From Planctomycetia bacterium (lineage in GTDB: Bacteria; Planctomycetota; Planctomycetia; Pirellulales; UBA1268): 64,000 nt of DNA. Under the pieces are notes generated by a model, which saw nothing but the letters and a program-made list of their open reading frames with translations, made no database searches and was not told the DNA's origin. The stretch is taken from assembly GCA_014192425.1 (NCBI GenBank), contig BJHK01000005.1, positions 164,753 through 228,752 of the forward strand, given 5' to 3'. This document shows positions 13,119-51,009 of the stretch, piece by piece. Made by a program: the position numbers and the translations under genes. The number at the start of each line of letters is the position of its first letter. The first letter of the stretch is position 1.

Positions 13119-13397
13119 GCGCTGCACGAGCGCGCCCCATTCGTCCAGGCAATCCGTGACGTGTCGGGCGAGCGGGGCTTTGGATTCGCGTCACCACAGC
13201 CTCCCGTGGCGTGGTCGTCGCTCGCATGCCCGCCCGTCGCGGTACCGCCCCGCTTGCCGACATTCCCGATGGCCAGTGCCGTGATGGCCGGCGGCGCGTG
13301 ACCGACGGCAGTCGCGAGCACGCTGGCTCCGCGTTGACGTCGATTTCGCCGGCAAATAGCATAAGCCATGTCGACGGTCGACATGGTGGGCGAGGCG

Positions 13398-32600: not shown

Positions 32601-33429
32601 AGTCGATGGCCGCCGGCAGGCCGACGTCGAGAAATCGGCCGTCGAACGTGCCGTCGCCGTCGTTGTCGCAGTCGAGCGGCGCACCCGGCTCGAGATAGGA
32701 GGCCCGGTTGACCGTGGATGAAACGATCGTCGCGCCCGGACCGACGCGGGCGAGGAATGGATTGTTCTCGTCGAAGCCGTCCCAGGACTCGTTGTCGGGG
32801 GCGTTCCCGGCGAACTCCCGGCCGTTGACGATGACCCGACAGGGGGTGGTCGGCGGCGAGAAGACCGTGTTGCCGGATGCCGCGGCGAAGACGAGCGTGA
32901 ACGAATTACCGGCCTGGTTCGTCACCGCCCCCGCGGCCGCGGCGCGGACGATGCGATGGGTCGAAACGGGCCAGCCCGGCTCGCTGATCGTGAGCAACCG
33001 CCCATTCAGGTCCGCGGGCTGCATTGGCGAGCCGGCGAGGACGAGTGTTCCCGTGGCGACGGCACCCGAGAGCGTCACTCCGGAGATGGTTCCCGATGTC
33101 GTCCCGGCGGCGCCGTAGCGGTCGGCGAGCAGCGACTCGAAGGTCACGGTCGGCGGGCTCGTGCCGGTTGCCACCGGCGCCGGGCCGCCGCCGCGGAGCA
33201 CCTTGACCAGCACCGTGTCGAGGAGCCGAGCCCGGGGGATCCGGGCCTCGTCGCCGCCGAAGGTGAGTCTGGAGTGGGCTCTCGCCGCCTCCCGGGCGCG
33301 CGTGGCCGCCACGAGGTAGGCCGCCCCGAGCATGAGAAACAGGGTCAGCATGCTGAGCACGACCAGCAGCAGCACGCCACGTCGTGGCGCCCCTGCATGG
33401 CGGTCGCGTCGCTGGGTGGAGAGAATCAT
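29599..33429 (-). CDS. Giant GspK-like pseudopilin, cassette 2
   Basis: 1276 residues from the ATG at 33429; a longer reading through the previous gene is rejected. The N-terminus RRGVLLLVVLSMLTLFLMLG is a prepilin-like helix without Glu at +5, as in GspK tip pseudopilins. It then has ESLLADRYGA, a calcium-type loop DCDNDGDGTFDG, ILVIDLDGRFNVNAHD, VVWGVERPEILITETLAWEN, PWPNRPFVSAAELMLVP and near the end REPGRVNLNTVTADDV (an NxNT motif as in GspK). Ordinary GspK is near 330 residues. The gene overlaps its PilV-like predecessor by four bases (ATGA), and PilW-like follows with another ATGA. It is paralogous to 40009-43632. The large Thr/Ser/Gly-rich middle may be a surface-exposed domain; function unknown. 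Confidence 0.75.
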   Translation of the reverse strand: MILSTQRRDRHAGAPRRGVLLLVVLSMLTLFLMLGAAYLVAATRAREAARAHSRLTFGGDEARIPRARLLDTVLVKVLRGGGPAPVATGTSPPTVTFESLLADRYGAAGTTSGTISGVTLSGAVATGTLVLAGSPMQPADLNGRLLTISEPGWPVSTHRIVRAAAAGAVTNQAGNSFTLVFAAASGNTVFSPPTTPCRVIVNGREFAGNAPDNESWDGFDENNPFLARVGPGATIVSSTVNRASYLEPGAPLDCDNDGDGTFDGRFLDVGLPAAIDSHGNTVQLRASILVIDLDGRFNVNAHDSLPRIIYTGSNFSNWTTAVATGSAPLGSGYGPAEINGAKMFPTAPLNVGANEDPLLFTVVGGRKTRQVGERPSDSRFTVDQDTPRLEALEGRYGERAPSSWPSATQLAADVALADSDFRFARPGIAGVDDDDSRRTDRRALPNQPITVNYGVPPLWWTGTATFNWGSDGSGAYPLPRGVFNSPPDLHGRMKTVTLAASGSGVVPAVAFAKPEWSTTSDPLRETRDDPYEIRLDTRRGPGGKLHDPATDGTSLAAAPTVHHPDNPFTPAELEAVLRPYDMDANRLPPRLAAMLGSAAEEARLKVTTDAWDTTAIVGGDPTTGAAARIQAWLALATSGTLYGSEPLSGIIGGEVSRGERFDLNRPLAAAAPANAGYDPTVEYYVQRQAYFKDLYTLLVALEPAADRAVLAQWAANVVEFRDADSRMTPFEYDTNPQNGWSVDGNATTDDGAERAVVWGVERPEILITETLAWENATTGGLFVALHRPWNARAWASGSSGIAAETCDPALDTLSSGASGKPTNVVDLGKKPATDVLASGTISGYDDVSGTAYPIWRLRIVADDTTRYLRLDTATAAADEFATSGITTGDSKPKLAVDSTLCLASGSTLVTQTGTVTVTLSGSGRTLTGMRVPGTPTTTAVRSGTIHLERLSDPSQVPTADTWNMTNTGTSSLRYVVVDSGSIGVVNTSIFSTQPLVGTQRSVSSGTTAFWRMAGQATSTVPAFGTFAFPTFTGGANVACMPWPNRPFVSAAELMLVPHGDAAGVLEGYVRPTPANQGSAGAPVPLGLLFDAVHVPSRYAGLHVTSGSSLPAESGVFAVTTSVNQLSAFREPGRVNLNTVTADDVWDAVVAGPLNAPVVSRTAADLETTPGQSLAAVMALSGTSTTPAADAHAANVLPVDLNPLHGIYTATRLANTATPRSNLFAVWITLRESVTGDPDSVRDHRAFYIVDRSIPVGFEEGRDHNVWDCVRVRRIIE

Positions 33430-34283
33430 TGCGTGTAGGGCCCCGTCGTCTCCGGCATGAAGGGCCGCTCCGCCAGCCCGACCGAGTCGGGAAGGAACTG
33501 CACCGGCACCGGCCCGCTGCCGAGTGCATTGCCCGTGGAGAGCGTGAGATAGGCCGTGCTGCCCGAGGCATCGAAGGCGGCCGCCGCGATCCGGTGGAAC
33601 CGCCCGTTGCCGTAGAGCACGCTGCCGACCCGGATGATCTCGCGCAGCGTGCGGTCGCCGATGGCCCCGGAAATCTGCGCGCGGTAGTCGGTGATCGTGC
33701 CAGTCACGACCGGCAGCGTCGCATCCCGGGCGTGGAACACGACGACCGACATGGTGCCGGGCCCTCCCGCGGACCCGCTGCGGAGGCAATACAGGCAACT
33801 GACCCGTCCGGCATGCGAGCGGACGCCGTCGCTGAAGGCGTTGAGCGGCGGCCCGTCGTCGCTGGCCGGCACCCCCACGATCGGATCGTCGGCCGACCGG
33901 GCGAACAGGTCGGCCGCGGCCGCAGCGGTCGTGGACGACGCTGCGGCGAACACGCCCCCCGTCTTCAGCTGGGCGAGGCTCGCCGTGCCGGCCGCTCCGA
34001 AATAGATTCCCGCCCCGCTGACCGCCGGATCGACGATCACCGGAACGGCAGCCGTCGGCGGCACGGTGAGCGCGTCGGCCCGGAGCAGGCCGAACGTCGC
34101 CGCGTCGGCGAGGGCGTTGGCCGCGAGGACGCCGGCATGGTTGAGGACGAAGGCCCGCTCGGCCTGGGATCGCGCCGCCGGCATCAGCGCCACCAGGCTG
34201 CTGAGCCCGATGGCGAGGATGCCGATCGAAATCAGCACCTCGAGCAGTGTAATGCCGGCTCGAGGCCGGGAAGGCGGATGCAT
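33426..34283 (-). CDS. PilV-like minor pseudopilin, cassette 2
   Basis: 285 residues from the ATG at 34283, just upstream of the prepilin motif; longer frames add no signal. The prepilin site is RAGITLLEVLISIGILAIGL, with Glu at +5 and the VLIS core typical of PilV/GspI. A pair of Cys (VSCLYCLR) occurs mid-protein. The remainder is strand-rich with no enzymatic motif. It follows the GspH-like gene after eight bases and overlaps the next gene by four. Paralogue: 43643-44467. Confidence 0.78.
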   Translation of the reverse strand: MHPPSRPRAGITLLEVLISIGILAIGLSSLVALMPAARSQAERAFVLNHAGVLAANALADAATFGLLRADALTVPPTAAVPVIVDPAVSGAGIYFGAAGTASLAQLKTGGVFAAASSTTAAAAADLFARSADDPIVGVPASDDGPPLNAFSDGVRSHAGRVSCLYCLRSGSAGGPGTMSVVVFHARDATLPVVTGTITDYRAQISGAIGDRTLREIIRVGSVLYGNGRFHRIAAAAFDASGSTAYLTLSTGNALGSGPVPVQFLPDSVGLAERPFMPETTGPYTQ

Positions 34284-34291
34284 GGCACCGT

Positions 34292-35347
34292 TCACCCTCC
34301 ATCCGCCAGGAGTTGCTGGCGGATCAATGTCTGGGACTCGATCACGTCGGTGACCAGCGTGCCATCCGACCGCCGTGCCATGCACTCAGCCGATTTCACG
34401 ATCCCCGTCTCGGGGTCGATGGCGATCCAAAAAGAGTCGTGGTACTGCCAGTTCGCGCCGCTGGAATCATCGGTGGCGTTGTAGGTCGCCGCGGCAGCGA
34501 CGTTGCCTTCGGCGCGGATCGCCCGCCCGACGAGCAGGAACAGCGGCCCGGTCACCGTCAGCCGCGCGGTGGCGGCGGGCGTCGTCTCGACGATCTGACG
34601 CAGTCGCCCGGTGCCGTCGAAGAGCGCCGCCACCGATGCCCCCGCCGTCGTGAAGCGACGGTAGGTACCGGCCACCGCGCCCACCTGCGGCGGGCCGAAC
34701 CCCGACCAGAACAGATCGATGCACCGGCCGTCGGCCAGCGTCAGCGGTGATCCACTCGGCATCGGCTTGCGCAGGATCTCGAACGTGTGGGTCGCCGGAG
34801 CCGGGGCCGGCCACGGGGTGTTGTGACGTGTCAGGCCGGCATCCTCGGCGGCACCGAAACCATCGGCGCCACGCAGCCGGAAGGCGACCTCCGACGCCGT
34901 CGCCGCCGTGATCTCGAAGAGCGGGCCGCGACCGTCGAAGCGGATCAGGTCGCCGACCGCCACGCCGGCCGTGCCGCTGGCCGTCAACTGCCCGGAACCG
35001 CTCATCGTTCGCGTATGGGTCGTGCTGCCGCTCATCGTGAGGGCCGCATCGACAGTGTCGCCACGGTACGCGATCGGCTGCTCGGCGAGGTGCAGGTCGA
35101 GGGCCGCGTAGGCCGTGGAGCCGGTCGGGGCCACGACGAAACCCGACCATTCCCGGCGGCCGAGGGCGCGGGCATTCGCCTTGCCGACGAACGACACCAC
35201 CGTCCGCGTCGCCTCGCGACTCCGCCGGGCCTCCACGGTGCCGACCACGTTCGGCAGCACGGTGACGGCGACCGTGCCCATGATCGCCACCACCACGAGC
35301 AGTTCGCTCAGCGAGGCACCGCGCCGCAGCATGGAAGGAGGCTTCAT
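34292..35347 (-). CDS. GspH/FimT-like pseudopilin, cassette 2
   Basis: 351 residues. The prepilin helix reads RRGASLSELLVVVAIMGTVA: Gly at -1 and Glu at +5, but Ala at +1 instead of the usual Phe. The next part, RREATRTVVSFVGKANARAL-like and WSGFVVAPTGSTAYAALD, fits the GspH pattern of a helix followed by a strand-rich domain. Spacing is ten bases after the previous stop and eight before the PilV-like start, so it lies in the same operon. It corresponds to 44472-45380 in cassette 1. Confidence 0.75.
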   Translation of the reverse strand: MKPPSMLRRGASLSELLVVVAIMGTVAVTVLPNVVGTVEARRSREATRTVVSFVGKANARALGRREWSGFVVAPTGSTAYAALDLHLAEQPIAYRGDTVDAALTMSGSTTHTRTMSGSGQLTASGTAGVAVGDLIRFDGRGPLFEITAATASEVAFRLRGADGFGAAEDAGLTRHNTPWPAPAPATHTFEILRKPMPSGSPLTLADGRCIDLFWSGFGPPQVGAVAGTYRRFTTAGASVAALFDGTGRLRQIVETTPAATARLTVTGPLFLLVGRAIRAEGNVAAAATYNATDDSSGANWQYHDSFWIAIDPETGIVKSAECMARRSDGTLVTDVIESQTLIRQQLLADGG

Positions 35348-35357
35348 GGCCGGCCGG

Positions 35358-36260
35358 TCACTTCGTGACGAGATCGTGGTTGGTGATGTTGTCTTTCCAG
35401 TCTTCGCTGCTGCTGTCGGCCACCCCGAACGTGTAGAACGGAAGGGGGGTCACGAGGTGGGCCAGGCTTGGGGCCGAGAGCCAGCCGGTCGAGAGGTTGA
35501 TGCCGACCAGGCCGTCCGGACCTGCGGACACGATCAGCGGCACGAGCGCGTAGCCGGGGACGTCGTTCCGCTGCGGATCGAAGGGGTCGTGGAAGTTCAC
35601 GGCGTCGGGCTTTTGCAGCGCCGAGCCCGCGAACCCGGGCGCCCAACGAATGAAGCCGATCGGATTGCCCCAGCCGTCGAGGAACTCCGGCGCCCCGTTG
35701 CCGTTGGTGTCGCCGATCTCGTCGGAGCGAAACTGCTCCATGAGGTCCGGCTCGATGCCGCCCCGGGAGACGATCATATACAGGCATTCGGCGCCCTCGA
35801 GGGCCGGCGTGATCCTTGCCGGCCGCGAGCCTGGATACCCCAGCACCGGACCCGTCTGCAGGTACGGGGCGAGCGAACTCACAGCGGCCGTGCTCGCCGC
35901 GACATCGGCCCAGCAGTCGGGCATCTCGTACACCATCAGCCGACGGACCGCTTCCAACTTCGCAAGGCCGTTGGCCCGGTGGTCGGTCGCCGAGGCGATG
36001 AAGGGAACCCGCCGGCGCAGGTAACTCTCGTGGTGCCCGACGATGATCTCGTGCAACTTGCGGATCGTGTTCCGGGTCTTGTCCGCCCGCACGCGTTGCC
36101 GGGTGGCGGCAAGGCCGGCGGCCGAGAGCGTGGCGAGGATGGCGATCACCGTCGCCACGACCATCAGCTCGACGAGCGTGAACCCACTCCCCCCACGGAG
36201 GCAGGGCGCTCGACCGCTCAGGCGGCTGCGGCAGGCGTGGCTGGTGAAGGGGAGCGACAT
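35358..36260 (-). CDS. GspG-like pseudopilin with calcium-type loop, cassette 2
   Basis: 300 residues from the ATG at 36260; upstream residues in the same frame precede the prepilin site and overlap the preceding gene. The prepilin motif is GGSGFTLVELMVVATVIAIL. A segment ECLYMIVSRGGIEPD is followed by EIGDTNGNGAPEFLDGWGNP, a D-N-N-D-type loop with the GWGNPI motif that marks the C-terminal domain of GspG-type pseudopilins. The same segment occurs in the cassette 1 paralogue at 45377-46189. It is the first gene of cassette 2, 25 bases after the stop of the separate GspG-like gene. Confidence 0.78.
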   Translation of the reverse strand: MSLPFTSHACRSRLSGRAPCLRGGSGFTLVELMVVATVIAILATLSAAGLAATRQRVRADKTRNTIRKLHEIIVGHHESYLRRRVPFIASATDHRANGLAKLEAVRRLMVYEMPDCWADVAASTAAVSSLAPYLQTGPVLGYPGSRPARITPALEGAECLYMIVSRGGIEPDLMEQFRSDEIGDTNGNGAPEFLDGWGNPIGFIRWAPGFAGSALQKPDAVNFHDPFDPQRNDVPGYALVPLIVSAGPDGLVGINLSTGWLSAPSLAHLVTPLPFYTFGVADSSSEDWKDNITNHDLVTK

Positions 36261-36285
36261 AAAGCGTTTGCCCGCAAAGACCGCG

Positions 36286-37017
36286 CTACTGGCCGACCGC
36301 CAGTACGCGGGTGCTCTTCCAAAAGTTCGAAAGGTCGTCATCCGTGCCGAACTGCTCGTCCAGGCCGGCACAGAGGATCTGGAACGTGTCAGGGTTGAAA
36401 TAGGTGCTGCCGGTCCGCATCACGGGCCTGTAGGTCCCGGAACCGAGGATCAGGGGGCTGGCGGCCTGCTGGGCGTATTGGGACGCGTTGATGTAGACGT
36501 AGGGGCTGAGCGGCTTGCCGACCGGTGCGTAGCCCCCACCCGCCACCCGGGTATCGTCGAAATCGAACAGTCGCTTCCGGTCGGCTGCCGGCTTCAAGGG
36601 GTCCGTCGGACTGCCCGTGTAGCCCAGCAGCCAGGAGGCAAGGGCGTTCGCCGGCGTGATCGCAGTGGCGGACTGGAACTGGCCGCCGGTGCCGGAGACG
36701 GTCGTGCAGCGGGGAAAGATCCGCTTCAGGTGGGCCTGGGCGGCGCTCGTGATCGGAGGACCGGCGGCGGTGGGGTTGGCGTCTGCGCAGGGCGGGAACG
36801 TGCCGTACTCGTTGCGGTAGTTCATCAAAGCCATGTGCAGGGAATCGATCTCGGCCTTGATGGCCGCATTGCGAGCGGCCGTCCGCGAGTTGAGCAGGGC
36901 GGGCGTGATCAAGGCGGCGAGCGCGGCGATGATGGCGAGCACCACCATCAGTTCGACGAGAGTGAACCCGCGACGGGACACGACAGGCGAATTCGCGATC
37001 TCGACCGCGCCCTCCAT
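36286..37017 (-). CDS. GspG-like pseudopilin between the two cassettes
   Basis: 243 residues. The prepilin motif SRRGFTLVELMVVLAIIAAL is canonical with Gly -1, Phe +1, Glu +5. The C-terminal part (YVYINASQYAQQAA, then FQILCAGLDEQFGTDDDL) is typical of major-pseudopilin-like proteins. It has no obvious counterpart in cassette 1. Upstream lies a 247-base gap with a candidate promoter, so it may begin a new transcript that continues into cassette 2. Confidence 0.75.
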   Translation of the reverse strand: MEGAVEIANSPVVSRRGFTLVELMVVLAIIAALAALITPALLNSRTAARNAAIKAEIDSLHMALMNYRNEYGTFPPCADANPTAAGPPITSAAQAHLKRIFPRCTTVSGTGGQFQSATAITPANALASWLLGYTGSPTDPLKPAADRKRLFDFDDTRVAGGGYAPVGKPLSPYVYINASQYAQQAASPLILGSGTYRPVMRTGSTYFNPDTFQILCAGLDEQFGTDDDLSNFWKSTRVLAVGQ

Positions 37018-37264: not shown

Positions 37265-38218
37265 CTATTTGAAGTCGGCCTCGCTGATCGGAACCCTCGG
37301 TGTCCAGCCGTTCACAGTGCCACCGGACACGGTATGCGATGACGTGATCAACTGGGCGTACACGCCCGGGTCCAGCGTGTCTTTCAGGAACCGCACGTCG
37401 GCCGAGCAGAAGGCGGCCACGACGCCCCCGCTGTGTTGCGAGGAGGGCACCGAGTTCACGAGGTTGGCCGCCCTGTTATTGACCACCTGCACGCCACCCG
37501 GGCCGCCACTCACGAGGCCGAACCCTGGCGGCGTCCGATCCCCCTCGAGTACGAACCCCGGGCTGGAGAGCGGGGCATTGTTCCAGCGGGCCTGCTTGAC
37601 GCCCGAACCGCATTTCTCGACGAGCAGCAAGGTCATGGCGGTGCCGTCGGCGGTGTTGATGTCCTCCAAGCTGAGGCGATTTCCGATCACGGTCGCGTTG
37701 TTCATCACGCCCTGCCATTTCATCCCCGCCTGGCCGACGCCGTAGTTGCCGGCGTAGGAGATCTGGGCCGGGGCGTCGATCAGGTCAGCCGGCCACGCCG
37801 TGGGGCAGAGAAAGGTGCCGACCTCCATTGTCGACAACATCTGGAAGGGGGCACCCGGGTCGACCTGGGCAGGAAAGCCGATGAACGTATCGTAAATGAG
37901 CGTCCTGTCGATGAAGGGCATGAGCGCGAGGCCCCAGCCGACGGGGAGATTCCTCGACGTCGGGTTGCCCCAGCCCGTCACGAAGCCCTGGGACTGGTCG
38001 TACTTCGCGACCCCGGTGGAAATCACGTACAGGTTGTTGAAGCAGGCGGCCCGCCGGGCCATCTCCCGCGCTGCCTGGAGCGCGGGAACGAGCAGCGCCA
38101 TCAGAATCCCGATGATCGCGATGACGACGAGCAGTTCGGCGAGGGTAAAACCCCGACGGCGCCGGTGACCACTGCGTGCCACCTTCGTCGTCCACGGTCC
38201 ACATGCGGTGGTGATCAT
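37265..38218 (-). CDS. DUF1559 pilin-like protein
   Basis: 317 residues from the ATG at 38218, which has AGGAGG eight bases upstream; the in-frame start at 38254 lacks this. The prepilin motif [20 protein letters not shown] is canonical. The family pattern [14 protein letters not shown] and the C-terminal SSQHSGG with [14 protein letters not shown] identifies DUF1559, a pilin-like family expanded to dozens of copies in planctomycetes. It lies 55 bases after the cassette 1 PilW-like gene and before the 247-base gap, so it may belong to the cassette 1 transcript. Function unknown. Confidence 0.88.
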
Positions 38219-38273
38219 GACCTCGTCCTCCTGGCTTCGTGTTCGAACGGACACAATGGGTCTAAGCGTTTGG

Positions 38274-40049
38274 CTAGCGGCTCAAAAAAGAGTGCCGTAG
38301 CGTCGTCTGCCGAATCTGCTGGCTGGCCGGATCGTAGCAGCGGATGCGGACCTCCAGACCCCGGAGACGAACGGGATACGGGGCGAAGGTCTCCGCCTCG
38401 CCCGGGTCGTCAGGCACGCCGTCGTTGTTGTCGTCGAGTCCATTCGTTCCCTGGTCGGAACCGAGGACTTGGTCTTCGTTCTCGCCATTGGATTCGTAGT
38501 GGGTGCTCCAAGTGTCGTACGTCCGGGAATCTCCGCCGTCCAAGGCCGTCGTGCCTGTGGCCAGCGTCCCGCTCCGTACTCGCATACCGCCCGACTGGAA
38601 GGCCGTCCGGCCGGCGGGCGGAAATGTCGCTGCGGCGCTCACGGCTGACGGGGGAATGAACCGCCCCGACAAGGCCCCCTGCCGGGGCAGGTCAAACCGA
38701 CTGTTGCGCAGCAAGCGGCTCGGATAGAGAAATCCATCCGCGGTAAAAACGCCTCCCCAACCGAGATCGACATACCCCCCGGGACCGCCGGTGCCGCTTG
38801 TTGCTCCGAAATACCTGTTGTCCCCCGGGAGACAAGTTCCCCCCGCGAACGTCAGCGTCACCGTGCTCGTAACGGCGGCGTTGCGATCCATTGTCAAGCA
38901 GGGCCAATCGAGCAAGTGAGTCACGGAGCCGTCCGGCTGTTTGGCGATCGTCGCCCCCGCCGGAAACGCTTCGTTCGCCGATACCCTGGCACCGAGGACC
39001 GAATACAAAAACCCTGTGTAATCGTAGGGGTCCAACAGCACGGGATCCATGACGTTCGCGCTGCCAACGTTCAATTTCACACGGCTCTGTCCCTGGTCGG
39101 TTTCGCACCGCACCTGAACGGCGATGGTCAGCGGAGACCGCACCTCCGCATCGTAGGCGAGAACGTCGAATGACAGCACGTTTGACAGCACGACATCCTC
39201 GCCGGCCCGCGAGCCGGAAAGAATCGCCTCTGGCCCGGCGAGCCGGTACGTTCCGGTGAGCGTGCCGCTCACGACAGGCTGGGGAGTGGCCCACACGTAG
39301 GGAAAGACCGTTCCGCTGACGCCCTGACCCCCGCGCAGGAACCGGTTTTCCCGCTTCGTCAGATCACCGAGCGAGTTGGGGACGAATCGCCCCCCCTCCA
39401 GCCGCACCGACAGGTCGCTGAGGTTCGTGTCGAACGTCGTCGCCGAATTCGTTCCCAGGAACGGCGGCCGGCCGACGTAGGGCATGACCAGCTTCTCCCG
39501 CCGGTAGAGCGTGAACAGCGTCATGCCGTCGAGCGGCTGCACGGTCGACGGCCGGCAGAACCATGCCACCTCCGCGACCGGCGACTCGATCGTCCCGTCG
39601 CCGAAGCGGCCCACGAACGGCTGCCCCTCGCTCCGAGTCGTGAACATCAGCACGTCATCCACGTCGGCGACGAGCAGCTGGCCACTTCTGTTGAAAGCCG
39701 CGTGCCCATCCTTCCGCCAGCCCTCGAAATACTCGAAGTAGCCCGACTCGGATTCCGGACGCACCGGCGGCATGAGATCGACCGTCACGCCGGTGAGATC
39801 CTGGCGGAGCCGCCAGGCCGCCGTCCGCAGGCGGGCCGACAGGTCGGCGGCGGCCTGGGCTGCCGTCAGCGACCGGGTGAAGACGCCGAACAGGCTGGCC
39901 ACGGCGGCCATGACGACGAGCGACAGCGTCATCGCCCACATCAGCTCGATGAGCGTGAAGCCGGCGCCGGCAACGCTGCCGGCGCCGATCCCGGCGCGGC
40001 CGGCGGCATCAGTCGAGCTGACGCAGCAGGCGGATCGTGTCCCGCACAT
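38274..40049 (-). CDS. PilW-like minor pseudopilin, cassette 1
   Basis: 591 residues. The prepilin helix [20 protein letters not shown] has Gly -1 and Glu +5. The next segment [18 protein letters not shown] is shared with 28250-29602 ([15 protein letters not shown]). The two proteins also share [27 protein letters not shown]-type segments and the C-terminal [19 protein letters not shown]. Before that, [18 protein letters not shown] looks like a calcium-binding loop. It is 141 residues longer than its cassette 2 counterpart. Its start overlaps the stop of the giant GspK-like gene by 41 bases, more than the usual four. Confidence 0.78.
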
Positions 40050-43000
40050 TGAGGTCCTCTCCTCTCGAATAGCCGACCGGCACCGACCGGTCGATGATCG
40101 CGAACAGCCGGCGCGTCACCGGCGGCGGCGCTCCCGGCGACGAGTCGGTCGTCTCCACGGTGATCCAGACGGCGAAGACGTTGGACCGCACGGTGGCGGT
40201 GTTCGCCAGCCGGTTGGCGCTGGCCAAGGCCAGGAACGGGTTCTTCGCCCGGGGGTGCACCGTGCCGCCGCTCGGTGCCGGAACCGACTCCATGGCCGGC
40301 GGCTGGTCCGCCGTCGTGCCGGAAAGCGACACCATCTGCCCGAGTGAGCGGGCCGGCCTGGGCTGGGCCGTGCCGGTGGCGGTGAACGGATTGGCGGCCA
40401 GCGTGCCCGACGCGAGGACCGTCTGCGTGCCGCCGACGAGCATCTGCCAGAGCAGCCCGTCAGTGGCCGCCGTCGTCCCCGTCGGCATCGTGTTGACGTT
40501 CATTTTTCCCGGTTCTCTTCCGAGGGCGAGTTGGCCCGCCGGCAGCCGGTTGAACCCGAGGGCCTGAAACGCCGTCGCGGTGTCGCCCGCGAGTCTGGCC
40601 GCGTCGAGCGTGACACGGTTGCCGGCGAACCGCGTCGAGACGATCGTGGCGTCGAGGATCAGGTGCCCGAGCGCGGCATTCCCGGCCGCTCCGCAATCCA
40701 CGAGTGCGCTGCTTGCCGCCAGCGACGACGTCGGGAACGAATAGTTCCGCAGCAGGCTGTCGGGGCCGTCGGCGGGCACGAGGGCGAGTTCCGCCTGGCT
40801 GACGAACGGCCGGTTGGGCCAGTGAAACCACGGCACCGGGTCGTTCGATCCAGAGGCGACGATGCCCGCCGACGCATGGTATGTCTGGAAGACCTTGCCG
40901 TCCGCCTGCCACGTGGCTGGCTGTTGCCAGAATGCCGCCAGCGGGTGCTGGCCGGCGCCGGTGTCGCGGGGGCCGGGCCGTCGCAGCCGCTGCGTGATGC
41001 CGTCGTCGGCCGTAGTCCCCGCGGTGCTCACCGTGAACGGTGCCGCATCGACGACGATGTACGGATTGTCGGCGGCGTTCGCCCGGTTCGGGTCGGCGAG
41101 CCGTTCCAGACGAACCGTTCCGCCGGCCGCCGTGGCCGGCGGGGCGAACGTGCCCCCCTGGTTCACGATCGTCGTCGGTGGCCCGGGCGGGGTGCCCGGG
41201 GCGATCGTCGTGGTGCTGACGCCGCCGATCACGACCATCGACTCCCGGCCGGTGCCGGACAGGCCCGCGGTGCCGCTGACGCCCGCGGTGCCGCCCATCA
41301 CGAGCGTGGGCGTTCCTGACACGGTGCCGTTCACGAGGATGAACTGCTGCGGGCTCGAACTGGCGCTCACGGGCCCGAAGGCGACCGCCTGATCGGTTCC
41401 GCTGGTCGTGAGCCGCAGTTGCCAGACGCTCGACGTACCCCCGACCGCGAGCCGGGCGTTCAACCGGTCGGTGCCCGAGACCCGCAGGACCGGATCGGGC
41501 AGTTCGACGGTGGCCGTGGAGCCGCTCACGGTGCGCCGGGCATTGAACGGCGCCCGGATCACGCTCACGAACATCGCCGATCCCGACAAGCCCCGCCAGG
41601 CCGCCGTGTCGGCGATGAGGAGGTCCGGCCGCTCGACGCCCCAGACGACACCGCGATCGGCCTCACCGGTGGTGGCCGGATTCCCGTCGACGCCCCAGCC
41701 GTTGGCGAGGTTCGTGTCGTACTCGAACGCGGTCATCGTCGAGTCCTCGTCGCGGAAATCGAGGACGTTCACCGCCCATTGGGCCGCGCGCTGGGCATTC
41801 GTCTCGCCGAGCGCCATCGCCAGCGCATACAGGCCCTTGCAGTACTCCTGCTGCTCGGAGCGGGCCTGCGGCGTCGTTCCGGCGAGCACGGGCCGATTGA
41901 TGTCGAACCGCAGCCCGGCCGCGATGTCCGGCGACCAGGCGTTGGTATCCGCCCAGGGATAGGAGGGCGGCCGGGAGGTGAGCGCCGACTCGACCCTGGC
42001 GGCCGCGGGGCCGGTGACCGCCGGCGTGTCCCAGCTGTCCGTGGTGATCAGCAGCCGCGAGGCCTGGGCGCTCGTTCCCAGCGCGGCCGCCAGCCGCTGC
42101 GCCAGGAACGACGCGTCCGCATCGTTCGGCCGCAGCACCCGCTCGAGTTCGCCAACCGTGTACGGCAGGTCGTCGTTGCCGCTCGTCCCCGTCGTCCGCT
42201 GATTGCCCCCCAGCAGCGGCGCTCCGGTGCCCAGCCGAATCTCGTACGGGTCGTCGGCCGCGTCGGTCCCGGACACCGGCAGGAACCAGGTCATCGTCGG
42301 CGTCAGCGCGTCGGGGGTGCCGTTGACGGTGGCCGACATGAACAACCGGGCATGCCCCTTCAGGTCGCCGACGGCGTTGGTGCCGCCCACGGTGCTCGAG
42401 TAGGAGCCGGACGACGTGACCTGCAGCGTGTCGGAATCGTCCCCCCTTGCACCCGGCACGCCATTGGGCCCGTAGCGGCCCGAGAACGCGCCGATGCCCG
42501 GTCTGGGCCGCGGCGGCGCGGCCGATGGCGGGCCATTGGTGGCCGACCCTCCCACGAGGACGCCCCACCACGTGCCGCTCGGGCTGGCTCCGGCACCCGT
42601 GAAGGCCGACAGGCCGGTGCTCGCGGGTAGCGTGGCCGGAAAGAGCAGCGATGCGTCGACGTCGGCCGGCCCGTAGCCCATGCCCAACGGCACGTCACGA
42701 GACCCCGCATATGACCCGGCGGCGGGCGCCGCCATCCCGGCGGCATTGACGTTCAGCCGGCCGTCGAGGTCGAGCACGAGGTACGACACCCGCTGCGTGA
42801 TCCGCCCGCCGCGCGGCGAGAGTCGTGGCGCCAGGAAGCCCGACGTGCCGTTGATCCAAACGCCGTCGAGGACGCCGTCGTTGTCGTTGTCGCATTCGAG
42901 GGGAAGCGGGAGCGCCAGGGCCGCATTGTTCGCCGCCTGATACGTGGCCTGGCGAACGGCCGCGACGCCGCCGGATGCGAGTTCCACGCGGGCGAGCCAG

Positions 43001-43632
43001 GGATCGCTCATCGCTCCCCCGCCGACGGCAGACCCGGTGGTGAAACCGTCCCACGGCTCGTTGGCCGGGAACGCGCCGGCGAAGTCGCGGCCGTTGACGA
43101 GCCACCGGCACGTGCCCGTCGGCAGCGTCCGCCCCGGTCGGCCGAAGGCGTTCGCGAGAAGGAGTTGGCCCGTCCCCCCGAGGATTCGAAAGCTCAGCAC
43201 GTCGCCGTCCCCGGACCGGAGCGGCACGAGTGTCAGCACGCGGCCGTTGAGGGACGCGTTGCCGGCGACCGTCGCGGTGAGAATCGGGGCCGCAGGCCAG
43301 CCGGACAGCGTCGGCACCGCCGTGGCGATTGTGTCCACGCTCGCGCCGTAGCGATCGGCCAGGATCGACTCACCGACCTGCGGGGGCAGCGCGGCCTGCG
43401 ATCCGCGCAGCAGCACGAGGAGCGCCTCGTCAAGCGCCGCCCGATCGTTGTAGGCCTCGAGTTCGTCGGTCGCCGTGCCGAATGTCCGGGCCGCCATCCG
43501 CGACCGCGTCGCGTTCACGAGCAGGGCCACGCCGAGGAGAAGAAACAAACTCAGCGAGATGAGCACGAGGAGGAGCAACACCCCCCTCGGGCCCGGCGGG
43601 CTTCCGACGCGGTGGCAGCGATGCCGGTTCAT
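40009..43632 (-). CDS. Giant GspK-like pseudopilin, cassette 1
   Basis: 1207 residues. The N-terminus PRGVLLLLVLISLSLFLLLG is a prepilin-like helix lacking Glu at +5. It shares with 29599-33429 the ordered motifs ESILADRYGAS, ECDNDNDGVLDGVW, YLVLDLDGRLNVNAAG, VVWGVERPDLLIADTAAW, HWPNRPFVSQAELALVPADG and EPGKMNVNTMP. The middle is rich in Gly/Ser/Thr/Ala with repeats such as TAGVSGTAGLSGTG. GspK caps the pseudopilus in type II secretion; the position after PilV-like and before PilW-like fits a minor-pseudopilin tip complex, but the size is unprecedented in that family. Composition and order resemble TIGRFAM Verru_Chthon cassette protein A; this needs an HMM search. Role: inferred pseudopilus tip or surface adhesin. 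Confidence 0.75.
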   Translation of the reverse strand: MNRHRCHRVGSPPGPRGVLLLLVLISLSLFLLLGVALLVNATRSRMAARTFGTATDELEAYNDRAALDEALLVLLRGSQAALPPQVGESILADRYGASVDTIATAVPTLSGWPAAPILTATVAGNASLNGRVLTLVPLRSGDGDVLSFRILGGTGQLLLANAFGRPGRTLPTGTCRWLVNGRDFAGAFPANEPWDGFTTGSAVGGGAMSDPWLARVELASGGVAAVRQATYQAANNAALALPLPLECDNDNDGVLDGVWINGTSGFLAPRLSPRGGRITQRVSYLVLDLDGRLNVNAAGMAAPAAGSYAGSRDVPLGMGYGPADVDASLLFPATLPASTGLSAFTGAGASPSGTWWGVLVGGSATNGPPSAAPPRPRPGIGAFSGRYGPNGVPGARGDDSDTLQVTSSGSYSSTVGGTNAVGDLKGHARLFMSATVNGTPDALTPTMTWFLPVSGTDAADDPYEIRLGTGAPLLGGNQRTTGTSGNDDLPYTVGELERVLRPNDADASFLAQRLAAALGTSAQASRLLITTDSWDTPAVTGPAAARVESALTSRPPSYPWADTNAWSPDIAAGLRFDINRPVLAGTTPQARSEQQEYCKGLYALAMALGETNAQRAAQWAVNVLDFRDEDSTMTAFEYDTNLANGWGVDGNPATTGEADRGVVWGVERPDLLIADTAAWRGLSGSAMFVSVIRAPFNARRTVSGSTATVELPDPVLRVSGTDRLNARLAVGGTSSVWQLRLTTSGTDQAVAFGPVSASSSPQQFILVNGTVSGTPTLVMGGTAGVSGTAGLSGTGRESMVVIGGVSTTTIAPGTPPGPPTTIVNQGGTFAPPATAAGGTVRLERLADPNRANAADNPYIVVDAAPFTVSTAGTTADDGITQRLRRPGPRDTGAGQHPLAAFWQQPATWQADGKVFQTYHASAGIVASGSNDPVPWFHWPNRPFVSQAELALVPADGPDSLLRNYSFPTSSLAASSALVDCGAAGNAALGHLILDATIVSTRFAGNRVTLDAARLAGDTATAFQALGFNRLPAGQLALGREPGKMNVNTMPTGTTAATDGLLWQMLVGGTQTVLASGTLAANPFTATGTAQPRPARSLGQMVSLSGTTADQPPAMESVPAPSGGTVHPRAKNPFLALASANRLANTATVRSNVFAVWITVETTDSSPGAPPPVTRRLFAIIDRSVPVGYSRGEDLNVRDTIRLLRQLD

Positions 43633-43642
43633 GATGCGACCC

Positions 43643-44467
43643 TCACTGCAATGTCACCAGGTGGTGCTCGACGCGGACCACGCCCTCGAAGCCGATCACC
43701 ACGAGCGACTGCCCCTGCCATTCGGGCGCCAGGGCTTCGGTGTCGAGGGCCACGCTCCCCGGCCACGACGCCCGCACCGACACCCAGGCCGGCGGCGGAC
43801 CGTTCACACCCCCGGCCACGACCAGGACAGACGAGCAGCCGTTCAGCCGCTGCAACCGATCCGCCTCGGGGCATTGGTAGGTGCCATCCGCGTTCCGCAC
43901 GAGCGAGATGGACTTCGGCTCCCCGGATCGGCGCAAGACGACGATCGACAGGACGGCAGCCGTTCCCGGCTGGGCGGGCGTGCTGACCGGCACGATCGTC
44001 GCGCCCCAGACGATCGAATCGCGATACTTCCGCGGGCCAAGCCCGTTCTCATCGAAGGCGTTCCGGGGGCCGCCCGGGAGATCATTGAAGACGACGTCGT
44101 CCTCCGCCACGAAGAACCGTCCCGCGTCGATGCCACCGAGGCTCCCGGCCGCCACCACCGTCGGCGCGGCCGAGGCGGCGCCGACGAGCGCCGGCCCGAA
44201 GACGAACGCGCGGGCATTGCCAGGGCAGGCCGCGGCGCTGGCCAGTCCGCGGTTGAGCATCTCGGCGTGGCCGTTGGCGGCGACGAACCGGGCGCGGTCG
44301 GCCACGATGGCCGCGCCGAACCGCTGGCCGGCGGCCGGAAGGAGCGCGGCTACACCCCCGAGCCCCAGGGCGAGGACGCCGCAGGCGATCAGCACCTCCA
44401 GCAGCGAGAGTCCCGCACGGCCGGGCCGTCCGGTCGGCAGATCGAAATGCTTGAATTTCCTGCTCAT
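43643..44467 (-). CDS. PilV-like minor pseudopilin, cassette 1
   Basis: 274 residues from the ATG at 44467. The prepilin site is RAGLSLLEVLIACGVLALGL, Gly -1 and Glu +5. Like the paralogue at 33426-34283 it has a LLPAA segment after the helix (ALLPAAGQRF against ALMPAARSQA). It lies four bases after the GspH-like stop and ten before the giant GspK-like start. The GspH-, PilV- and GspK-like order is that of a minor-pseudopilin operon. Confidence 0.78.
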   Translation of the reverse strand: MSRKFKHFDLPTGRPGRAGLSLLEVLIACGVLALGLGGVAALLPAAGQRFGAAIVADRARFVAANGHAEMLNRGLASAAACPGNARAFVFGPALVGAASAAPTVVAAGSLGGIDAGRFFVAEDDVVFNDLPGGPRNAFDENGLGPRKYRDSIVWGATIVPVSTPAQPGTAAVLSIVVLRRSGEPKSISLVRNADGTYQCPEADRLQRLNGCSSVLVVAGGVNGPPPAWVSVRASWPGSVALDTEALAPEWQGQSLVVIGFEGVVRVEHHLVTLQ

Positions 44468-44471
44468 GCCC

Positions 44472-45380
44472 TCACCTCCCGCTCGACGCGCCCGGCTGGG
44501 CGAACGCCCGCGCATCGCGAATATGTTGCGCCGTCACCGTTGCGGGGGCCGTCAACGGCTGAGCGACGTTCGCCGCCACCGTCACCCGCCCGCTCTGCGG
44601 CGACACAACCACCCAACGCGAGACGCCGCTCGCCAACGGGGCGGCCTGGCTGCGCTCGATGTCCGCCTGGGCCGCCACGAGAAAGTAGACCGGGGCCGGC
44701 GGGACCTCGACGTTATTCACCCACAGGCCGGCGACTCCGCCGAAGCCGTCGAACGCCACCGTGATGTCCCCCTTGCCGGCCAGGCTCGCGTACGTGGCGT
44801 CGTTCTCGATGCCGCTCGACCGCAGGTCGATGGCTGCCATCTTGGGAAGCACGGCGACCCGCTCCGCCTTCACCGGGCGGCAGAGAACGCGGCACTGCAG
44901 ACCGTCGCCGATCGGCCAAATCGTATTGTCGGCCGTCTGGCCGGCGGCGGCGCGGAGCGACAAAACACCGTTGGCATATCCGAACCAGGGGGAGGGCGGC
45001 ACCGCGCCCGACCCGGTGCGGAAGAATTGGATCCGGGAGCCGTTCGCGAGACCGGCGGGATCGGTCGCGTTCAGAACGCTGACGCTTCCGCCCACGGGGC
45101 CGGCGACGGAGCCCTCGATCGGCGGCGGAACCGAGGCGGAGGCCAGCGACACGGACGTGTTTCCGGCCGACTCGATCACCAGGGCGCTGCCCGCCGGATT
45201 CCCCAGGCCGCGCGACCAGGCCTCGTTGAGGGCCGTGGCCAGCGCGTTGGCCGCATCCCGGCACTGCCGTCCCGCGCCCGGCGCGAGTCGGGCGAGCATC
45301 AGGCCGTACAGGACCACCATGATGGCGATGACCACCAGCAACTCGATGAGCGTGAACCCCTGGCGAATGCGGCGTGTCAT
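44472..45380 (-). CDS. GspH/FimT-like pseudopilin, cassette 1
   Basis: 302 residues. The prepilin site [20 protein letters not shown] is canonical. The segment AANALATALNEAWSRGLGNP fits the GspH helix after the conserved N-terminal spine. The start overlaps the stop of the GspG-like gene by four bases (ATGA), and the PilV-like start follows four bases after its stop. No enzymatic motif. Confidence 0.78.
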   Translation of the reverse strand: MTRRIRQGFTLIELLVVIAIMVVLYGLMLARLAPGAGRQCRDAANALATALNEAWSRGLGNPAGSALVIESAGNTSVSLASASVPPPIEGSVAGPVGGSVSVLNATDPAGLANGSRIQFFRTGSGAVPPSPWFGYANGVLSLRAAAGQTADNTIWPIGDGLQCRVLCRPVKAERVAVLPKMAAIDLRSSGIENDATYASLAGKGDITVAFDGFGGVAGLWVNNVEVPPAPVYFLVAAQADIERSQAAPLASGVSRWVVVSPQSGRVTVAANVAQPLTAPATVTAQHIRDARAFAQPGASSGR

Positions 45381-46189
45381 CGCTGCGCCTCCGCGTCGAA
45401 GTTCGTGACGTTGTCCACGCGCCGGTCGGTCCCGGAGCCGTCATGGCCGCCCAACCCCCCGGCGACGCTGGGCAGATTGCCACCGGCGTTGACCTTCGTC
45501 GTCCCCAAGCCGTCCGGGCCGTGGGAGAAGATCAAGGGCCGCGTCCGGGCGCCCCCGGGGAAGAAGGAGGTGCCCGGAGGGAGTTCGAACGCCTGCGGCC
45601 AGAGGACGTAGCGGATCGGATTGCCCCAGGGATCGAGAAACTCCTTCGCCCCGTCGCCGTCGGTGTCACCGGTGCCGATCCCCTCCAGTTCGCTGCAGGC
45701 GAGGCAGTCGGCCAGCCCGCCGCGCGTCACCATCATGTACAGGCACTCGGCATCGGCGACGTCGGCCGACGGCGACGAGGAGTTCGCCGCCCGCAGCGAT
45801 TTCCAGACCCCGACGTACGCCTGCTGCGGACCGGACGTGAACTCCGCCGGCCGACCCGCCATGTAGGCCACGTCGCTCCAATTGTCGGGCATGTCGCCGC
45901 TGATCCGCCGGGCCACGAGGTCCGCCCGGCTGCCCGTTCCCGACAGGCGCAGCGACTGGCACCAGGTGAAGTGCTGCTGGATCACCGCGTCGAGTTTGGC
46001 GATGTCGGCGCTGGCCTTGAACCGCTTCTGCCCACCCCGGGCGGCGGCGGCCCCGCTGGCCGTGACGCCGACAAGCAGCATGACGATCGCCGCCGCCACC
46101 ATCATTTCGATGAGCGTGAAGCCGGCCCCGCCGCCCTGCGCCCGGAGGGCGCCGGCGGTCGATCTCGGCCTGGCGGCGACGGTATTCAT
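45377..46189 (-). CDS. GspG-like pseudopilin with calcium-type loop, cassette 1
   Basis: 270 residues. The prepilin motif [20 protein letters not shown] is canonical. ECLYMMVTRGGLADCLAC is followed by GIGTGDTDGDGAKEFLDPW and GNPIRYVLWP, a calcium-type DxDxDG loop and the GspG C-terminal motif. The paralogue at 35358-36260 shares this block. It lies ten bases after the PilC-like stop, so the cassette 1 pseudopilins are in the same transcriptional unit as the assembly machinery. Confidence 0.8.
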   Translation of the reverse strand: MNTVAARPRSTAGALRAQGGGAGFTLIEMMVAAAIVMLLVGVTASGAAAARGGQKRFKASADIAKLDAVIQQHFTWCQSLRLSGTGSRADLVARRISGDMPDNWSDVAYMAGRPAEFTSGPQQAYVGVWKSLRAANSSSPSADVADAECLYMMVTRGGLADCLACSELEGIGTGDTDGDGAKEFLDPWGNPIRYVLWPQAFELPPGTSFFPGGARTRPLIFSHGPDGLGTTKVNAGGNLPSVAGGLGGHDGSGTDRRVDNVTNFDAEAQR

Positions 46190-46199
46190 GGTGTGCGCC

Positions 46200-47534
46200 T
46201 CACGACAGGGTTTGGATCAGCTTCACCAGCGGCATGAACAGGGCGATGACGATGAATCCCACCGCTCCGCCGAGGAAGATGATGAGCAGCGGCTCCATCA
46301 GGCTCGTCAGGCTCTCCGTCAGCACCGCCACCTCTTCATCGTAGGTGTCGGCGACCTTGAAGAGCATCGTGTCGAGCTCGCCCGACTCCTCACCCACGTC
46401 GACCATGTTGACGGCCAGGTCGTCGACCACCGGCTTCTTCCAACGCATCAGATAAAACAGGGCGCCGGCCAGCGGCACGAACGCCATCCAGAACAGCAGC
46501 GCCACGGCGTTGAACGGGGGCACGGCGTAGGCCTTGAGGGGCTTGGCGATCGCCTCGCCGTCGCGGATCGACTCCGACACCTTGGTGAACAGCCGCTCGA
46601 ACATCATGTTGCCCGACGTGTCCCTGGTGATGTTGAGCGCCTCGAGGATCGGCACGCCGCTGGCGAGCAGCGTGGCGAGCGTGCGGCATGCCCGGGCGAG
46701 GATGTTCTTCTCGACGAGCTGGCCGAAGACGACCACCTTGAGCGCGAACAGGTCCCAGCCGAAACGACCGTAGGGAATGAGCTTGATCAGCCGCACCACG
46801 AGGTTGATGCCGATGGGAATCGCCGGGATCAGGAACCACCACCTCACGACCCAGTTCGACAGGTTGATGAGCAGCAGCGTCATCGTCGGCAGTTCGGTTT
46901 CGAAGTCGTCGAAGATCTTCTTGAACTGCGGCACGATCGAGACCATGATGAACGACAGGATTCCGACCGCCACCATCACGACGACGATCGGGTAGACGAG
47001 CGCGCCCTTCACCTTGCGCTTCAGCGATTCGCTGCGCTCCATGAACTCAGCCAGGCGGCGCAGGATCACCTCCAGCGCACCGCCGGCCTCGCCGGCCCGG
47101 ATCATGTTGCAGTACAGCCGGTTGAAGGCCTTGGGGCTCTTGGCCATCGCCTCCGACAGCGTCGCCCCCCCCTCGATCTCGTCGCAGACATCGAGCAGGC
47201 TGTTCTTCAGCCGCCCCGGCTTCTGCATCTCCGCCAGCAGTTTCAGGCTGCGCAGGATCGGCAGGCCGGCATCCTGGAGAATGGAGAGTTGACGCGTGAA
47301 CATCGTCAGCTCCTTCGTCTTCACGCCGCCGATGGCGAAGCTCCGACCGGGCTTGCGGCCCCCGCCGGCGGCCTTCTTGGCCGCAGCCGCCGCCCGCTGT
47401 GCCTTGAGCTTCGTCACCATCAGGCCCATCGAGCGGATCGTGGCCTGCGCCTCCGCCTCGTTGGCCGCGTCGACGGTGTCGCGAATCTCCTTGCCGGTGG
47501 CCTGGTCGATGGCCTCGAACTGGTACGTGGGCAT
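46200..47534 (-). CDS. pilC: PilC/GspF inner membrane platform protein
   Basis: 444 residues, slightly longer than the usual 400-405. It opens with MPTYQFEAIDQATGKE, the family N-terminus. The two T2SSF domains follow: MFTRQLSILQDAGLPILRSL with GGATLSEAMAKSPKAFN and RAGEAGGALEVILRRLAEFM, then ACRTLATLLASGVPILEALN with VDVGEESGELDTMLFKVADT. Three membrane segments are seen at about residues 200, 250 and 410. The extra length is an Ala/Lys-rich linker (RAAAAAKKAAGGGRK) near residue 50. It is the inner-membrane anchor for the pilus/secretion ATPases and lies 17 bases after the PilB-like gene. Confidence 0.92.
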   Translation of the reverse strand: MPTYQFEAIDQATGKEIRDTVDAANEAEAQATIRSMGLMVTKLKAQRAAAAAKKAAGGGRKPGRSFAIGGVKTKELTMFTRQLSILQDAGLPILRSLKLLAEMQKPGRLKNSLLDVCDEIEGGATLSEAMAKSPKAFNRLYCNMIRAGEAGGALEVILRRLAEFMERSESLKRKVKGALVYPIVVVMVAVGILSFIMVSIVPQFKKIFDDFETELPTMTLLLINLSNWVVRWWFLIPAIPIGINLVVRLIKLIPYGRFGWDLFALKVVVFGQLVEKNILARACRTLATLLASGVPILEALNITRDTSGNMMFERLFTKVSESIRDGEAIAKPLKAYAVPPFNAVALLFWMAFVPLAGALFYLMRWKKPVVDDLAVNMVDVGEESGELDTMLFKVADTYDEEVAVLTESLTSLMEPLLIIFLGGAVGFIVIALFMPLVKLIQTLS

Positions 47535-47551: not shown

Positions 47552-49270
47552 TCAGGCTTCCAGGATGGTTTCGCGGATCACTTCCTCGGCGGTCGTGACC
47601 CCGGTGTAGACCTGGGCCAGCCCCGCGTCGCGAAGCGTGACCATGCCGGCCCGCCGGGCCGCCTCACGGATGTCCTCCGTGGAGGCGTTCCGCATCACGA
47701 GATCCCGGATCTCGTCGTTCAATATCATGAATTCGAAGAGGCCGAGCCGGCCCTTGTAGCCGGAGCGGTTGCACTTCTCGCAGCCGCGGCCGCGGTAGAA
47801 CTTCCGCCCCACGGCCTGGTCGCTGGTGAGCTCGAGGTCCGCCAGCACGTCGGCCCCCGGCACCACCTCCTCGCGGCAGTTCATGCAGATCCTCCGGACC
47901 AGGCGCTGCGCCAGGATCGCCTCCAGCGTGGCCGTGATCAGGAACGGCGGCACGCCCATGTCGCGCAGCCGGGTGACCGTGGACGGGGCGTCGTTGGTGT
48001 GCAGCGTCGAGAACACCATGTGCCCGGTGAGCGCCGCCTGGACGGCGATCTCCGCCGTCTCCACGTCGCGGATCTCGCCGACCAGGATCCGGTCCGGATC
48101 CTGGCGCAGGATCGACCGCAGGCAGTTGGCGAACGTGTTGCCGATCTCGGCATCGATCGGCACCTGGATGATCCCGTCGATGTCGTACTCGACCGGGTCC
48201 TCCGTGGTGATCAGCTTGTCATCGATCGTGTTCAGCTCGGAGAGCGCGGAATACAGGGTCGTGGTCTTGCCGGAGCCGGTCGGGCCGGTGACCAGCACGA
48301 TGCCATTGGGCCGCGCGATGACCTCGCGAAACTTCCGCAACGTCGCCTCCGCGAGCCCGACCTTGGCCAGGTCGAGGCTCACGACGCCGCGGTCGAGCAC
48401 CCGCATTACCACGCTCTCGCCGAACAGCGTCGGCAGGACGCTGACCCGCAGGTCCACCGGATGACCGCCGACGGAGAGCTCGATCCGGCCATCCTGCGGC
48501 AAGCGCCGCTCGGCGATGTCGAGGTTCGCCATCACCTTGATCCGCGTCGTGATCGCGAAGGCGAGGTGCTTGGGGGGCGGCACCATCTCCTGGAGCACGC
48601 CATCGGCCTTGAGCCGGATGCGGAACTCCGTCTCGAAGGGCTCGAAATGGATGTCGCTGGCGCCGTCGCGGATCGCCAGCAGGAGCACCATGTTGAGGAG
48701 CTTCCGCACCGGCGCGCTCTCCGCCAGGGCCTCGACGCTCGTCAGGTCGGTGGGCCCGTCGCGGCCGGCCGCGGCGGCCGCCGCGGCGAGCTCGTCGTCC
48801 GCCTCCAGGTCCTGCACCAGCGACTCGACGCTCTCGGTCTCAGAGGAGTAAAAGCGGACGATCGCCTTGTGGATTTCCTGCTCGGTCGCCACGCAGACCG
48901 TGATGTCGTAGCCGAGCAGCGTCCGCAGCTCGTCGGCCACCTGGATCTTCTGCGGCTCGGCGGAGGCGATCGTCAGCCGGCTGCCCGACAGCTCGAGCGG
49001 CACCACACGGTACAGTTGGGCCATCGGCTCGCTGATCAGCCGCAGGACATCCGGGGCAATCTGCCGGTCGTAGAGCGTTACGAACGACGTGCTCCACTGC
49101 TCGGCCAGTGCCTCGCCCAACTGCTCCTCGGAGTAGAACCCGAGGGCCACGCCGACGCGGCCGAGGAGTTCCCCGCCACGGCTCGCCTGCGTCTCCAGCA
49201 TCGTGCGCAGCTGATGCTCGTCGATCAGGCCGAGGTCGATGAGGATCTGTCCGATGCGCTTGATGGCCAT
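47552..49270 (-). CDS. pilB: PilB/GspE-type assembly ATPase (copy A)
   Basis: 572 residues from the ATG at 49270. An N-terminal MshEN-type domain (GQILIDLGLIDEHQLRTMLE) precedes the N2 domain (SDIHFEPFETEFRIRLKADG) and the ATPase core. Walker A is GPTGSGKTT and the Asp box is TTEDPVEY. Walker B (ILVGEIRDVETAE) and His box (STLHTND) follow. A tetracysteine metal-binding site is present: CMNC and GRGCEKCNRSGYKGR. Transcribed after PilT and before PilC. It powers subunit assembly into the pilus or pseudopilus. Confidence 0.93.
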   Translation of the reverse strand: MAIKRIGQILIDLGLIDEHQLRTMLETQASRGGELLGRVGVALGFYSEEQLGEALAEQWSTSFVTLYDRQIAPDVLRLISEPMAQLYRVVPLELSGSRLTIASAEPQKIQVADELRTLLGYDITVCVATEQEIHKAIVRFYSSETESVESLVQDLEADDELAAAAAAAGRDGPTDLTSVEALAESAPVRKLLNMVLLLAIRDGASDIHFEPFETEFRIRLKADGVLQEMVPPPKHLAFAITTRIKVMANLDIAERRLPQDGRIELSVGGHPVDLRVSVLPTLFGESVVMRVLDRGVVSLDLAKVGLAEATLRKFREVIARPNGIVLVTGPTGSGKTTTLYSALSELNTIDDKLITTEDPVEYDIDGIIQVPIDAEIGNTFANCLRSILRQDPDRILVGEIRDVETAEIAVQAALTGHMVFSTLHTNDAPSTVTRLRDMGVPPFLITATLEAILAQRLVRRICMNCREEVVPGADVLADLELTSDQAVGRKFYRGRGCEKCNRSGYKGRLGLFEFMILNDEIRDLVMRNASTEDIREAARRAGMVTLRDAGLAQVYTGVTTAEEVIRETILEA

Positions 49271-49281
49271 GGGGCGGGTGC

Positions 49282-50790: not shown

Positions 50791-51009
50791 GGCCGCGGCC
50801 CTCCCGCGCGCACCGCGAACCGCCGTTGCCGACCGAGATCGGACAAGCACCGCGGAGGCCGGCTCACGGCGACCATCCTGACGACCCGTCGGACTCGGCC
50901 CCTGACAGCCGCCGACCGGACTTGTTGCATTATGCGCGTCATCGGCCGAAAAGTCTCCTCAGCCCCATAAATTTCGCCTGCCCGGCCGGAAAACCGCCGT
51001 CCGCCGGCC

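Follow-up and report, generated by a model that had tools for sequence, protein, structure and literature searches.

Two giant, divergent GspK-related minor pilins predicted in a planctomycete pilin operon

We identified two giant minor pilins, K1 and K2, encoded in a 64,000-nucleotide stretch of DNA (the window) from a Planctomycetia bacterium of the order Pirellulales. As judged from a predicted structure and from sequence comparison, both hold as giant, divergent GspK-related (K-type) minor pilins. The full explanation, which we consider likely, is that K1 and K2 cap a probably retractile filament, carry their inserted modules in front of it and provide it with two tips.

Genes, N-termini and conservation of the giant K proteins

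K1 (40009-43632; 1207 aa, 1190 aa when mature) was delineated from its open reading frame, an AF2 model, a bridge protein described below and the N-termini of its homologues, and K2 (29599-33429; 1276 aa) from its open reading frame and a phylogenetic tree. Coordinates without a prefix are those of the window, and the features they mark lie on the minus strand unless stated otherwise. The first-pass annotation had reported two frames of these lengths with a prepilin-type start RGVLLLxVL, no Glu at +5 and an NxNT motif near the C-terminus, and each of these features was present. The N-termini read PGPRG^VLLLLVLISL in K1 and APRRG^VLLLVVLSML in K2 (caret, predicted cleavage site), so that +5 is Leu in K1 and Val in K2, and the C-terminal motifs are EPGKMNVNT (NVNT at 40489-40500) and EPGRVNLNT, respectively. 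Each protein also has a second, earlier NxN motif, DLDGRLNVN in K1 (42745-42771) and DLDGRFNVN in K2. Both leaders are short, basic and end in Gly; that of K1 is 17 aa long (43582-43632), with a predicted prepilin-peptidase site, and is followed by the predicted N-terminal pilin helix (mature residues 2-59; 43405-43578). K2 starts at the ATG at 33429, overlapping the stop of the upstream I2 gene by 4 nt; a listed 1567-aa open reading frame (29599-34302) is the K2 frame run upstream through I2.

Giant-K matches were found in 31 of 40 relatives and in 46 of 72 genomes of the family. All named relatives belonged to Planctomycetota, and the Pirellulales names among them included Rhodopirellula baltica, Bythopirellula polymerisocia and Pirellula. 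We examined the N-termini of 63 distinct homologues that had been picked by their middle region only, which keeps this test free of circularity. Gly was present at -1 in 63/63, almost always shortly after Arg, Gln or His, and Glu was present at +5 in 0/63. Motif conservation was counted in a 35-row alignment, in mature K1 numbering: N277 of the first NxN was kept in 33 rows and N279 in all 35, and N1028 and N1030 of the NxNT motif were kept in all 32 rows reaching that point. At the level of sequence, this N-terminal and NxN pattern is far beyond chance.

Complete relatives ranged from 1,018 to 3,007 residues after the leader. Their growth in length was spread over several loops, with most of it at mature K1 positions 720-828 and 841-924. 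The longest giant K lies at L142:1402-10422 (3,007 residues after the leader), and the giant K of Rhodopirellula baltica (L147) is 2,220 residues or longer. In the tree, K1 and K2 fell into separate clades inside the family (support 100/100 and 100/98), both of which contain several members of the same genus. This strongly supported separation suggests that the duplication is old and that both copies have been maintained.

Relationship to GspK and the inserted modules

AF2, given 35 homologues, was used to model mature K1 (pTM 0.85, mean pLDDT 75). Structure prediction had been set beforehand as a check on the pilin assignment, and for K1 as a single chain it came out in favor, with a pilin-like helix at residues 2-59 and a GspK-like fold. 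Using VIA-align, the model matched the E. coli GspK crystal chain 3ci0_K (Z 11.8, rmsd 3.8 Å, 253/280 residues) in an alignment that spans model residues 35 to 1190; the runner-up chain (Z 6.4) was unrelated. Foldseek placed 3ci0_K at rank 9 of 350,542 chains with an E value of 0.64, which is not significant. Since AF2 was trained on the PDB, the match to 3ci0_K is no independent blind test.

HMM searches with K1 and K2 returned no match in Pfam, NCBIfam or PDB sequences, and neither protein matched the GspK HMMs PF03934, PF21687 and NF037980 at any threshold. Comparing the whole giant-K profile with GspK by hhalign gave weak local matches (P about 1e-3). As these direct profile hits were weak, the link between giant K and GspK was made through a bridge protein, L149:889-3456, which at 856 aa is intermediate between ordinary GspK and giant K. 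In a search of 3,890 ORFs, it aligned collinearly with a profile of 13 GspK sequences (5.4e-23) as well as with that of giant K (1.2e-15), and it also matched NCBIfam T2SS_GspK (4.7e-9) and Pfam T2SSK (9e-4). Neither PF03934 nor PF21687 matched in the K1/K2 genome (a 3.98 Mb planctomycete assembly of 70 contigs), while across the phylum PF21687 matched in 56/149 genomes. Because the GspK models miss K1 and K2 and the link runs only through L149, we regard them as a divergent GspK-related family rather than standard GspK. The L149 protein is a good start for tracing the origin of the giants.

The order of motifs common to GspK and giant K begins with D-x-x-x-[KR]-x-N-x-N, continues with D-[WF]-R-D-x-D and N-x-P-F-x-x-x-x-E-L, and ends with G-[KR]-x-N-x-N-T followed by R-S-x-x-F...[AV]-[IV]-[IL]-D-R. 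On motif comparison and alignment, the first NxN motif of K1 is the counterpart of GspK D-E-x-x-K-x-N-x-N. A predicted alpha-domain segment carrying DFRDED (mature 563-622; 41716-41895) corresponds to GspK DWRDxDD, which the L149 bridge also supports; of its acidic positions, compared with the calcium site of the GspK alpha-domain, D611 and D613 were kept in 34/35 rows, D608 was Asp or Glu in 34 and E620 was present in 19. The K1 segment RSNVF...FAIIDRS (40084-40188) is, by motif comparison and the L149 bridge, the counterpart of the GspK C-terminus. With GspK and XcpX (3ci0_K, 5vtm_X), the giants share a leader ending in Gly, a helix without Glu5, a pilin sheet with an inserted alpha-domain, the NxN and NxNT motifs, the C-terminal RSxxF...DR block and I and J partners encoded alongside. 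Unlike these proteins (near 300-350 residues), giant K is about four times larger and carries inserted modules, its gene order is I-K-J rather than I-J-K, and PilT is encoded in its operon.

The extra mass had been described as one very large Gly/Ser/Thr-rich domain. A large addition of about 900 residues is indeed present, but in the predicted model it is split into several modules that interrupt the GspK fold: a small beta-barrel (mature 81-165; 43087-43341), an all-beta region (around mature 340-440) and a beta-sandwich (mature 650-866; 40984-41634). We considered a single extra C-terminal adhesin domain and rejected it, as segments resembling GspK are scattered along the entire protein and include its C-terminus. 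The barrel gave structure matches of Z about 5-6 to ATPase-type barrels. The motif DNDNDGVLD (42865-42891), with D231, D233 and D235 in 35/35 rows, is a putative calcium-binding motif.

The beta-sandwich gave Ig- and archaellin-like structure matches and resembles the lamin tail domain (LTD) by hhalign (P 3.7e-5, score 36); in controls, none of 20 column shuffles scored above 14.4, and other K segments scored 12. It shows the typical V-I-N-E ... F-I-E-L-Y-N ... D-L-x-x-W pattern, and the Pfam LTD model weakly matches L149 (E 0.008) in the same place, right behind the D-x-R-D-x-D motif. The Pfam LTD model PF00932 matched none of 35 giant-K members, and the K genes were also missed when all ORFs were scanned with an LTD profile (hmmsearch). 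With PF00932 silent and the profile-profile comparison at this P value, we call the sandwich LTD-like and do not file it as an LTD. When the order was searched for LTDs, most matches were to other giant proteins, and the assignment in the K genes therefore draws only on L149 and the profile-profile comparison. In some Pirellulales genomes (G031, G242), dozens of LTDs are present in giant proteins whose open frames reach 5,391 residues. LTDs are known from bacterial proteins that are secreted or periplasmic; their role is unsettled, and membrane tethering has been suggested (PMC6085458). A carbohydrate or surface role for the K modules would be a guess, drawn from the lifestyle of these bacteria.

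Pilin cassettes, filament machine and alternative readings

Two H-I-K-J cassettes, one with K1 and one with K2, lie behind a single PilB-PilT-PilB-PilC set. The first cassette comprises GspH-like H1 (44472-45380, by HMM), GspI/PilV-like I1 (43643-44515, by profile matches), K1 and the GspJ-like J1 (38274-40049; 591 aa, from sequence), which overlaps K1 by 41 nt. The second comprises H2 (34292-35347, by HMM), I2 (33426-34385, by profile matches), K2 and J2 (28250-29602; 450 aa), which are H-, I-, K- and J-like in the same way. Further pilins are the GspG/H-like G1 (45377-46189), the GspG-like G2 (36286-37017; TIGR01710, E 5e-13), a pilin-like protein between G2 and H2 (35358-36371) and, between the two cassettes, a DUF1559 protein with a prepilin N-terminus (37265-38254). 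Across Pirellulales, giant K directly follows an I-like pilin (LTLLEVLIS) and, where this could be seen, precedes a J-like one (MTLVEMLVA). J1 and J2 also far exceed the usual length of about 200 aa (591 and 450 aa, respectively) and have D-x-N-x-D-G segments near the C-terminus. The J2 model (pLDDT 62, pTM 0.67) matched a 198-residue Xcp pseudopilus chain, 9a1f_S, at Z 9.7 over 181/198 residues, with the next best at 2.3; we take this chain to be the J subunit because of its length. Foldseek alone gave no significant match for the J2 model, and the E. coli GspJ sequence gave none against the PDB. Elsewhere in the window, a planctomycete cytochrome-type protein with PSD2-5 and PSCyt domains (13368-17681, plus strand) bears no relation to K1 or K2.

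The machine genes upstream of the first cassette encode a PilC/GspF platform protein (46200-47534), a PilB/GspE-type assembly ATPase (ATPase 2; 47552-49285), a PilT-type retraction ATPase (49282-50850; TIGR01420, 455 bits against a cut-off of 319) and a further PilB/GspE-type assembly ATPase (ATPase 1; 51010-52713), with PilT between the two PilB-type ATPases. This order recurs, whole or in part, in five other genomes (L049, L050, L051, L053, L060). The genome has one recognizable prepilin peptidase and one secretin, both outside the operon, and PilM was also found, so that every member of the type IVa set that we tested (PilB, PilT, PilC, PilM, secretin, peptidase) was present. A PilY1 search of the same genome gave no match, and its control was also unmatched. 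Because PilT, which is foreign to type II secretion, lies in the operon, we favor a retractile machine like that of a pilus, probably a type IV filament, over a classical secretion system, even though the tip protein resembles GspK. The earlier assignment of both proteins to GspK stands for homology, the pilin-type helix and the I- and J-type partners, on the strength of structure comparison, the bridging sequence and gene order, and falls short of a clear type II setting, given the PilT gene.

The foremost alternative is a type II pseudopilus with a giant tip, in which the tip would be periplasmic and its modules would recognize secreted enzymes or push them through the secretin. The structural match of K1 is to GspK and not to PilX, the G and H matches lean to Gsp models, searches of this genome found no GspK of ordinary size, and planctomycetes secrete many enzymes. 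On the other side, PilT is no type II component and yet is conserved inside the operon, PilM was found in the genome, and the I proteins match PilV (22/29) over GspI (1/29). We regard this pseudopilus as possible but doubtful.

The lack of Glu at +5 had been taken as unique to GspK. This does not hold, as PilX of type IVa pili also lacks Glu5 (PMC7541494), and since the feature is common to both, it does not decide between them. K1 and K2 might then be PilX-type tips of a type IVa pilus, with their GspK kinship limited to the helix and the remainder a fused PilY1-like adhesin, a reading with which the PilT and PilV-like features of the operon would agree. The GspK match, however, covers nearly the whole of crystallized GspK, C-terminus included, and the L149 protein has GspK motifs at both ends, which makes the PilX reading unlikely. 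It is highly improbable that K1 and K2 are ordinary secreted or surface proteins with a Sec signal peptide and a superficial likeness to pilins: a VxA-like site (VNA) does follow the hydrophobic stretch (GspK itself has a similar ALA) and the Gly+Ser+Thr content is 28%, but Gly at -1 is invariant, the genes hold a fixed place between I- and J-type pilins, and the GspK fold comes with a GspK-type C-terminus.

Known giant and modular pilins and a proposed filament tip

The nearest named giant family is Verru_Chthon cassette protein A (TIGR02600, 1296 positions), which occurs with cassette proteins B, C and D and resembles giant K in being a giant protein of a pilin cassette. The helix of TIGR02600 matches giant ORFs across the phylum and its C-terminus matches the L149 protein, so that it is probably a giant of the same kind; the I and J relatives match cassette proteins B and C weakly. 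K1 and K2 gave no match to TIGR02600 at E values up to 1, and no match anywhere reached its cut-off. Among the papers searched, none described Verru_Chthon cassette protein A. A separate giant family may be formed by ORFs of 1,036-1,735 aa from elsewhere in the phylum (L066, L067, L068, L069, L071, L073, L074); these have a GspK-like helix, and it is mainly there that the models for GspK and Verru_Chthon A match them.

Modular minor pilins are known, GspK among them; examples are PilB of Streptococcus sanguinis, CofB and ComZ, and in ComZ and GspK the module is inserted in the pilin sheet (PMC8179133). Giant K is like these modular type IV pilins in adding a module to a pilin for display on a filament. 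It differs from those of that survey, whose most extreme multi-domain pilin singled out has 860 residues, in its length of 1,018-3,007 residues and in having no domain visible to the survey's method (PMC8179133). Myxococcus has three minor-pilin/PilY1 clusters for one pilus machine (PMC7541494). The FimU/PilV/PilW/PilX and PilY1 proteins of type IVa pili share with our system a tip pilin without Glu5 and, as in Myxococcus, several tip cassettes for a single machine. In type IVa pili, the large tip protein is the separate, non-pilin PilY1 (PMC7541494), whereas here the bulk lies inside the K pilin.

We propose that a prepilin peptidase would remove the short leader of K1 and K2, leaving the helix to anchor the protein in the inner membrane. 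With a residue other than Glu at +5, nothing would need to sit above K, which, by analogy with GspIJK, would act with its I- and J-type partners to start and cap the filament. In the predicted model the GspK core is intact and the roughly 900 extra residues form modules in its loops. PilC would be the platform on which PilB-type ATPases build the filament, and since the operon also encodes PilT, the filament would probably retract. Carried at its front, the modules, including the lamin-tail-like sandwich, could make contact with cargo, a polymer or a surface, either at the secretin or beyond it, and take the part that the separate PilY1 plays on type IVa pili. With its two H-I-K-J cassettes, one machine would have two different tips to choose from. 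A place at the tip, display on the surface and adhesion are plausible; a tip of about 120 kDa might fail to pass the secretin. More tentatively, and for Pirellulales at large, we suggest a retractile type IV filament whose giant K tip of 1,000-3,000 residues merges the cap with an adhesin or cargo device (PilX plus PilY1 elsewhere), with at least two tips swapped on one motor to capture polymers or surfaces.

The giants extend the size range of the GspK family about nine-fold and indicate that large modules can be inserted into the fold of the tip pilin. The family is common in a whole bacterial order, including the culturable Rhodopirellula baltica, and is missed by standard domain models. 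If the tip is displayed, giant K would be a concrete candidate for how planctomycetes touch surfaces and polymers, and a natural test of the tip shape needed to start assembly and pass the secretin.
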